From Sulfurovum sp. XGS-02 (GTDB lineage: Bacteria > Campylobacterota > Campylobacteria > Campylobacterales > Sulfurovaceae), in the NCBI RefSeq assembly GCF_023213175.1, contig NZ_CP093312.1, positions 744,001 through 808,000 on the forward strand: DNA of 64,000 nt, in the 5' to 3' direction. The notes below the pieces were generated by a model. It worked only from the letters and a program-made list of their open reading frames with translations. It made no database searches and was not told the DNA's origin. Shown here one piece after another: positions 52,527 through 53,877 of the stretch. How positions within the stretch are numbered: the stretch's first letter is position 1; each line of letters starts with the position of its first letter. Both the position numbers and the translations under genes were made by a program.

Positions 52527-52954
52527 GTCAAGTCAGTTACACCAACAGACGACTTAAAGAGTCCATTTTATCGTTATTTTTCATATAATTTCTTCTCAAG
52601 ATTGATACTTTAAAGACGCTTTAAATCATATGTTATATCATCATTATAATTTATGTTTATGATCACTTATTCTAAATATCATGACTTACATTAAATTCAC
52701 TCAATTTTTCCAAAATGTCGTCATTTTTAAGTGTTTGAAAAGATTGCTGGATATATACTTCGCGCCCTATATACCTTCATTGAAAAAGCTAAACCTATCG
52801 TGAGGCAGGGGCAGAAAGCCATGGGTCTTTATTTCTTGAGATCGCCAGGTTACCATAGAGATTCTTACTATTCTTTTTCATTCTGATATATATTGTTTTC
52901 AAACCAAAGGTGCCATTATGGTCAAAATTATGTTTTTACAGGGAGTTATCTTAT
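52527..52954. other. Leader region of the PAS signalling operon
   Basis: 428 bp with no large gene. TATACT at 52754-52759 is a possible -10, then the riboswitch-like element at 52784-52856, then about 98 nt to the PAS ATG. A short frame (ATG 52918, AAAGGT upstream) overlaps the PAS start and could be a leader peptide. Confidence 0.55.
52784..52856 (+). promoter_or_regulatory. Cyclic-di-GMP-I (GEMM) riboswitch aptamer candidate
   Basis: Lines up without gaps with the class I c-di-GMP aptamer (Vc2 type) for about 40 nt from AAACC. Elements in order: GCTAAACC (52788-52795); stem CCTATC, GNRA tetraloop GTGA, GGCAGG (52794-52809); GGCAGAAAGCC at the core (52810-52820, canonical ACGCAAAGCC); GGGTCT (52823-52828) as the receptor helix; AGATCGCC (52839-52846); and AGGTTACC (52847-52854), which closes on TAAACC. 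The two core differences and a short P2 make it a variant. It precedes a PAS/roadblock signalling operon. Switch mode unclear; no terminator is seen, so translation control is possible. Confidence 0.75.
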
Positions 52955-53473
52955 ATGGGAATTACACCAATAGATCTAGAACACGAAGTGAAAAGTGTTG
53001 ATATCGTTGTTTCAAAAGGAGATGCAGAAGGTAATATCACCTATGCAAACCCGATCTTTTTTAAATTAGCCGGCTATACACAAGCAGAACTTTTAGACCA
53101 ACCGCATTCAATTGTGCGTCATCCAGAAATGCCAAAGATCATTTTCAAATATTTATGGGATAGTCTCAAAGCCGGGAATGATGTCAAAGCTTTTGTGAAA
53201 AACCTCTCTAAAGATGGTGGTTTTTATTGGGTATTTGCACATGTAAAAGTCGCTACAAACCCAGATAAGTCATTTAGAAATTATGTTTCAACCAGAAGAG
53301 GAATGTCTGCATCTGCAAGATCGCTGATAGAACCTTTATATAAAGAGTTACTTGCTGCAGAAAAAGACGGTGGTACTGATGCATCTTTGGCACTCTTGGA
53401 ATCTTTTTTAAAAGAGCAGGGTGGAAGCTTGGATACATTTAATGAAACAATGCAAAAAATTCAAAACAGTTAA
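52955..53473 (+). CDS. Stand-alone PAS-domain protein, CetB/Aer-like
   Basis: A 172-residue cytoplasmic protein with one PAS domain (about 20-125): ITYANPIFFKLAGYTQAELLDQPHSIVRHPEMPKIIF, then KNLSKDGGFYWVFAHVKVATN. The IVRHPEMP and YWVFAHV signature is that of FAD-binding Aer-type redox sensors; in Campylobacter CetB is a similar stand-alone PAS partner of CetA in energy taxis. No CetA is nearby. ATG 52955 is chosen (GGGAG 9 nt upstream); an in-frame ATG at 52910 is less likely. Confidence 0.85.
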   Translation: MGITPIDLEHEVKSVDIVVSKGDAEGNITYANPIFFKLAGYTQAELLDQPHSIVRHPEMPKIIFKYLWDSLKAGNDVKAFVKNLSKDGGFYWVFAHVKVATNPDKSFRNYVSTRRGMSASARSLIEPLYKELLAAEKDGGTDASLALLESFLKEQGGSLDTFNETMQKIQNS

Positions 53474-53487
53474 TAGAAGGATAGAAA

Positions 53488-53877
53488 ATGATCGAATTTG
53501 ACCAATCAATGAAAAAGCTACGCTCTGTAAACGGATATTTAGGATCTGCAGTATTGAACTTTTCTGGTGAAACACTTTATATGGATGAAGAAAATACAAG
53601 TGTGGATATCGCCTATTCGGCAAGTATCTTTAACGATGCATTCAGAATGATTTCTGAATCTTCTTTGGACGTAGGTTTTGCTGATGCTTCTTTGGTAGAG
53701 TCTAGAACAGAGGACGGGCATGTATTCCTTATCAATAGTTCCGGTGATGCAGGCGGAGACAATTTTTCAAAGCTTACAACATTTGCTATTTTCAGAGATG
53801 ACGGGAATGTTGCCCTAGGAAAGATGATTATGGAGAAGACTGTACAAAATATGTCTAAAGCTATGAATGAGCTGTAA
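53488..53877 (+). CDS. Roadblock/LC7-like domain protein
   Basis: A 129-residue single-domain protein. Its pattern (VNGYLGSAVLNFSGETLYMDEENTSVDIAYSASIFND, then VFLINSSGDAG and FTTFAIFRDDGNVALGKMIMEK) resembles the roadblock/LC7 fold, which forms dimers and regulates small GTPases or signalling complexes. No GTPase lies here; the PAS protein 14 bp upstream is the likely partner. AAGGA before the ATG. Fold call is by eye. Confidence 0.65.
   Translation: MIEFDQSMKKLRSVNGYLGSAVLNFSGETLYMDEENTSVDIAYSASIFNDAFRMISESSLDVGFADASLVESRTEDGHVFLINSSGDAGGDNFSKLTTFAIFRDDGNVALGKMIMEKTVQNMSKAMNEL

Follow-up and report, generated by a model that had tools for sequence, protein, structure and literature searches.

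The window, a 64-kb stretch of the Sulfurovum sp. XGS-02 genome, contains an operon whose 5′ leader carries a predicted class I c-di-GMP (GEMM-I) riboswitch aptamer (Table 1). The first gene encodes a PAS-domain protein with an RHPxMP motif; two further PAS genes that stand behind a riboswitch in this genome share the motif. Alignment with its orthologues places the true start at ATG 52955, as against the listed GTG 52910; the longer reading frame from that GTG lacks a Shine–Dalgarno sequence, and a GGGAG or AGGAG motif is found at the Shine–Dalgarno place in 4/4 orthologues. The protein encoded by the second gene gives no Pfam match at E 5 and no convincing NCBIfam or PDB match, and structure prediction returns a low-confidence fold. 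An initial sequence-only reading had described a PAS/roadblock operon. Its PAS assignment is borne out by the Pfam match, whereas the roadblock assignment is plausible by eye and was not confirmed by the searches or the predicted fold.

Table 1. Features of the riboswitch leader and the operon. Positions are those of the window; counts refer to the 21 aptamers of this genome (own) and to 81 aptamers sampled from Sulfurovum and other Campylobacterota (sampled).
Feature	Position	Strand	Evidence
Class I c-di-GMP (GEMM-I) aptamer, entire domain (predicted)	52779..52858	+	cmscan RF03167, RF01051, own model
Candidate competing helix, GAAAAAG 52782-52788 (J1/2 and G20) with CUUUUUC 52873-52879	52782..52879	+	part of free MFE fold
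G20, ligand contact; A in cGAMP-type aptamers	52788	+	21/21 own, 81/81 sampled; role PMC3764141, PMC4744006
P2 pairs 21-46 and 22-45: C52789-G52814, U52790-A52813	52789..52814	+	compensated; replace usual G21-C46, C22-G45
P2 upper stem 52794-52799/52804-52809 with GNRA loop GUGA 52800-52803	52794..52809	+	model alignment, covariation
C44, pairs with G83 (52844), interhelical	52812	+	both residues 21/21 own, 81/81 sampled
A47, stacked between the two ligand guanines; G in RF03167 consensus	52815	+	21/21 own, 81/81 sampled
P3: 52817-52820 and 52822-52828 paired with 52839-52842 and 52845-52851	52817..52851	+	model alignment, covariation
C92, ligand contact	52853	+	21/21 own, 79/81 sampled
Shine–Dalgarno AGGGAG, nine bases before start codon	52940..52945	+	direct reading
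PAS-domain protein, 172 aa, Aer-like RHPxMP motif	52955..53473	+	Pfam PAS_3 9.7e-12; orthologue alignment
Second operon gene, 129 aa, roadblock-like by eye	53488..53877	+	conserved with PAS gene in genus

A cmscan search of the whole window against Rfam, with the lower-scoring match of the same clan suppressed, returned a single match at gathering level, RF03167 (c-di-GMP-I-GGC) at 52779-52858 on the forward strand (61.6 bits, E 4.2e-12; gathering score 59). RF01051 (c-di-GMP-I) scores 57.9 bits at 52778-52857, well in excess of its gathering score of 35, and our own covariance model gives 83.6 bits, a value that is partly high by construction. No match to c-di-GMP-II (RF01786) was obtained up to E 1 on 52600-53000. 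The class I aptamer that the sequence-only reading had placed in this leader is thereby upheld: the elements that it described are present, and the Rfam models that it had named as a check gave a significant hit for RF01051 and none for RF01786. The extent that it gave, 52784-52856, was correct as to place, the cmscan domain being slightly wider. The leader folds no better than its shuffles (z +1.6); folding energy by itself is therefore uninformative here, and the signal lies in sequence and covariation.

The upper stem of P2 contains one A.C mismatch among its six positions, so that the 6-bp stem with a GTGA tetraloop originally described is right in its loop but not in its full pairing. A GNRA loop caps P2 in 21/21 copies of the genome. 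The GGTTACC sequence, first taken for a closing stem, consists of the 3′ end of P3 together with J3/1 and forms no separate stem. P1 of the window copy consists of 2 bp (UG/CA) together with mismatches and scattered pairs.

The genome (2.19 Mb, one contig) contains 21 class I aptamer matches, found by covariance-model searches and distributed over approximately 15 operons. When these copies are aligned, 98.0% of cells are paired and nine pairs have changed on both sides; the 42 double-change cells compare with a shuffled mean of 11.9, none of 500 shuffles being as good, and sliding the partners abolishes the pairing. P1, whose register is variable, was tested separately from P2 and P3, and complementarity to its own partner (87.5) exceeds that of partner swaps (64.3 ± 5.7; 0/2000) over the same 21 copies. 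With 21 paralogous copies and strong covariation, the window element is more than a chance match. On the basis of its sequence and alignment, 52779-52858 on the forward strand is very probably a complete class I c-di-GMP riboswitch aptamer, for which ligand binding is predicted.

Tandem aptamer pairs are located at genome positions 1209352/1209506, 1210723/1210871, 1418241/1418463 and 1909478/1909626. The tandem pairs L013 8845-9092(-) and 10216-10456(-), L019 4472-4714(+) and L016 4235-4562(+) precede DUF4382 lipoproteins, a subtilase and another lipoprotein, and a strong terminator-like hairpin lies behind the first aptamer of the pair at 1210871. In the aptamer at genome 246571 (L009 3565-3698(+)) the 3′ half can be read in two ways, as AGTCGGGTTGC or as GATAGCCGGGTTACC; a partial duplication of the 3′ strand of P3 may account for this.

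As the window copy scores highest in Rfam with RF03167 and exceeds the gathering score of that family, the aptamer could be taken for a c-di-GMP-I-GGC variant with a changed ligand preference, a reading that we consider improbable. From the Rfam consensus we infer that ‘GGC’ denotes G20/G47/C92. The RF03167 and RF01051 consensus sequences differ at position 47, reading GACGCGAA and GACGCAAA, respectively (G47 versus A47), and A47 is present in 102/102 aptamers checked without selection for this base (21 own and 81 sampled), the window copy included. Furthermore, members of one 21-copy set divide between the two families by score, with 4/21 reaching the RF03167 gathering score. Given A47 in the window and in every other aptamer checked, the RF03167 label rests on score. 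The higher score is probably an effect of the A-rich J1/2, a feature that the window copy shares with RF03167 despite the difference at position 47.

The second gene has a match in 25/61 genomes of the genus, and about 24 related operons were examined, of which only four carry a riboswitch before the PAS gene. The association of the riboswitch with the PAS operon is therefore lineage-specific, and most simply represents a local gain. A different PAS gene is preceded by an aptamer in several Sulfurovum genomes. The window aptamer might instead be in decay, with switching of the PAS gene already lost: its P1 is weak, the terminator and Shine–Dalgarno analyses (see below) identified no expression platform in the leader, and the element is absent from most orthologous PAS operons. 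However, in the four orthologous leaders the flanks have diverged while the aptamer between them is conserved; its changes are compensated and it keeps every ligand contact, which makes decay an unlikely account. The paired bases are thus maintained in the orthologous leaders that carry the aptamer, as the sequence-only reading had anticipated for a genuine element.

The key conserved residues for ligand recognition in this class are G20, C92, A47 and A48, with C44-G83 as the conserved interhelical pair (PMC3764141); G20, A47 and C92 are also named as ligand contacts elsewhere (PMC4744006). A48 and A49 are present in 21/21 own and 81/81 sampled aptamers. The core of the window copy differs from the usual arrangement in two base pairs, both of them compensated, C21-G46 standing in place of G21-C46 and U22-A45 in place of the usually conserved C22-G45. 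The former is found in 21/21 own copies and 78/81 sampled Campylobacterota aptamers, the latter in 8/21 and 5/81, respectively. Among the matches listed from GTDB genomes, the C21-G46 pattern occurs in Desulfobacterota, Gammaproteobacteria, Campylobacterota and other groups, and nearly all of these listed matches fall within full aptamers as judged by our own model. Altered specificity via C21-G46 was rejected because the pattern is spread over many lineages inside full aptamers; it is therefore regarded as ordinary natural variation. The earlier proposal that the core differences signal altered specificity, possibly for cGAMP, is not supported: the pairs are compensated, the first is found across many lineages, G20, A47 and C92 are all kept, and none of the 14 readable GGDEF motifs is of the Hypr type.

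Aptamers of the cGAMP type carry A20. Although the window aptamer shares its fold with the GEMM-Ib riboswitches for 3′,3′-cGAMP, lies in a PAS/energy-sensing context and belongs to a multi-copy GEMM-I set of the kind known from cGAMP-using Geobacter (PMC8835794), a cGAMP riboswitch is highly improbable here, as every copy has G20 and none A20 (21 own and 81 sampled) and the Hypr serine occurs in 0/14 readable GGDEF motifs of the genome. The GGDEF selectivity residue, which is Ser in Hypr enzymes, has been described along with the background to GEMM-Ib (PMC6456294). The genome encodes 18 GGDEF domains, and the 14 readable motifs all have the canonical Asp, the remaining four domains being divergent and unreadable. 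G20, together with the lack of a Hypr Ser in the readable motifs, makes c-di-GMP the expected ligand by prediction.

Natural C92U aptamers, with G20, A47 and U92, were observed at L235 1485-1579(-) (identical in sequence to L042), L165 1492-1581(-) and L031 4809-4913(+), the Sulfurovum cases preceding an outer-membrane protein gene and a PAS gene. As position 92 pairs with one ligand base, altered specificity is more plausible for these aptamers than for the window copy.

The closest described counterparts are Vc2 and Vc1 of Vibrio cholerae (RF01051), which share with the window aptamer the two-helix fold, the GNRA loop and its receptor, C44-G83, G20, A47 and C92, and whose targets are likewise signalling and surface genes. 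Vc1, like the window leader, has no apparent terminator or anti-Shine–Dalgarno (PMC4744006). The window copy differs from both in having C21-G46 for G21-C46, in U22-A45 and in its short P1, and the J1/2 of the copies described here is A-rich or U/G-rich, unlike that of Vc2/Vc1. Geobacter sulfurreducens has 17 GEMM-I riboswitches, most of them for cGAMP (PMC8835794, PMC6456294). The Geobacter GEMM-Ib set resembles that of the present genome in its high copy number, its tandems and the formation of a single-genome regulon from one aptamer fold, but differs in that G20 is kept in the copies described here and no Hypr motif was found among the 14 readable GGDEF motifs.

The 5′ leader of the PAS operon is proposed to fold into the two-helix GEMM-I aptamer, in which the GNRA loop of P2 would dock on P3 and the C44-G83 pair would hold the helices. 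c-di-GMP would be bound between G20, A47 and C92. Once bound, the ligand would favour the aptamer and P1 over competing helices that involve the ~100 nt of following leader, and would thereby alter how strongly the PAS gene and the second gene are expressed.

The form of the expression platform was approached in several ways. For aptamers in general the summed score of intrinsic terminators downstream is no better than that of dinucleotide shuffles (54/200 as good), clear terminators being seen only in the leaders at genome 1210871 and 1218227, and no intrinsic terminator follows the aptamer in the window leader. Masking of the Shine–Dalgarno sequence in the window leader was rejected, as its unpaired probabilities are nearly equal with and without the aptamer constraint, and pairing of J1/2 with the downstream leader was rejected as a general platform (permutation 1836/5000, no general trend over the 21 leaders). 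The competing helix of GAAAAAG with CUUUUUC (Table 1) ranks first for the window copy when the 21 leaders are compared as partners, and by inspection is kept in 3/4 orthologues. This helix, which would bury G20, may be the best platform candidate for the window leader, and is put forward as a tentative hypothesis. Good terminators in two other leaders, and start codons that in some cases lie just 30-45 nt after the aptamer, suggest that platforms probably differ between copies.

The targets in this genome are three PAS proteins, a hybrid kinase, a GGDEF-EAL protein, DUF4382 lipoproteins, a subtilase, an L,D-transpeptidase, an outer-membrane barrel and an ABC exporter with RiPP-type genes. In relatives they include HD-domain proteins with an HHEWWDGGGYP motif, PilJ, CAP, LysM/NlpC, DUF11 and DUF4382 surface proteins. 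Such targets, c-di-GMP enzymes and surface proteins, are typical of GEMM regulons. The aptamer L020 7258-7369(-) precedes genes for an ABC exporter, Transglut_core3 (McjB-like), an HPr-kinase-like protein and two asparagine synthases (genes 1911265-1918220); a PqqD gene lies nearby, and a homologous exporter stands behind an aptamer in another genome (L229). These genes apparently constitute a lasso-peptide-like cluster under riboswitch control. An unexpected target is the threonine synthase gene approximately 250 nt downstream of the aptamer L011 3221-3310(+), and the intervening stretch may hold something else.

In the sample of the genus Sulfurovum 56/61 genomes contain the aptamer, with up to 21 copies. 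Across the phylum sample it was found in at least 25/298 genomes, a lower bound as 14 candidates per genome were scored, and most copies are in Sulfurovum. The effector search, which covered PilZ, found no such domain in the genome by Pfam, despite the 18 GGDEF domains and 21 aptamers. A literature search on c-di-GMP riboswitches with Sulfurovum or Epsilonproteobacteria found no paper on the subject, which does not disprove that one exists.

Within its known riboswitch class the window element is ordinary; a modest surprise lies in the multi-copy Sulfurovum regulon, in a genome with no PilZ match. The analysis brings to light an extensive riboswitch regulon in a phylum for which no c-di-GMP riboswitch paper was located. 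It also traces the unusual core to a compensated base-pair swap, which does not point to a new ligand, and shows that a high score can earn an aptamer an Rfam variant label although the signature nucleotide of that variant is missing. We propose that through the 21 copies a single second messenger is linked to PAS sensors, to a GGDEF-EAL enzyme, and to surface and exported proteins. It is quite possible, although we would stop just short of calling it probable, that the little-studied Sulfurovum-type Campylobacterota, as the size of the set suggests, run c-di-GMP signalling mainly via RNA, with up to 21 aptamers per genome and no detectable PilZ, the switches feeding back on c-di-GMP enzymes and gating redox-type PAS sensors, surface proteins and a peptide-biosynthesis cluster. 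If this RNA-centred reading is true, the window leader would couple energy sensing to c-di-GMP.
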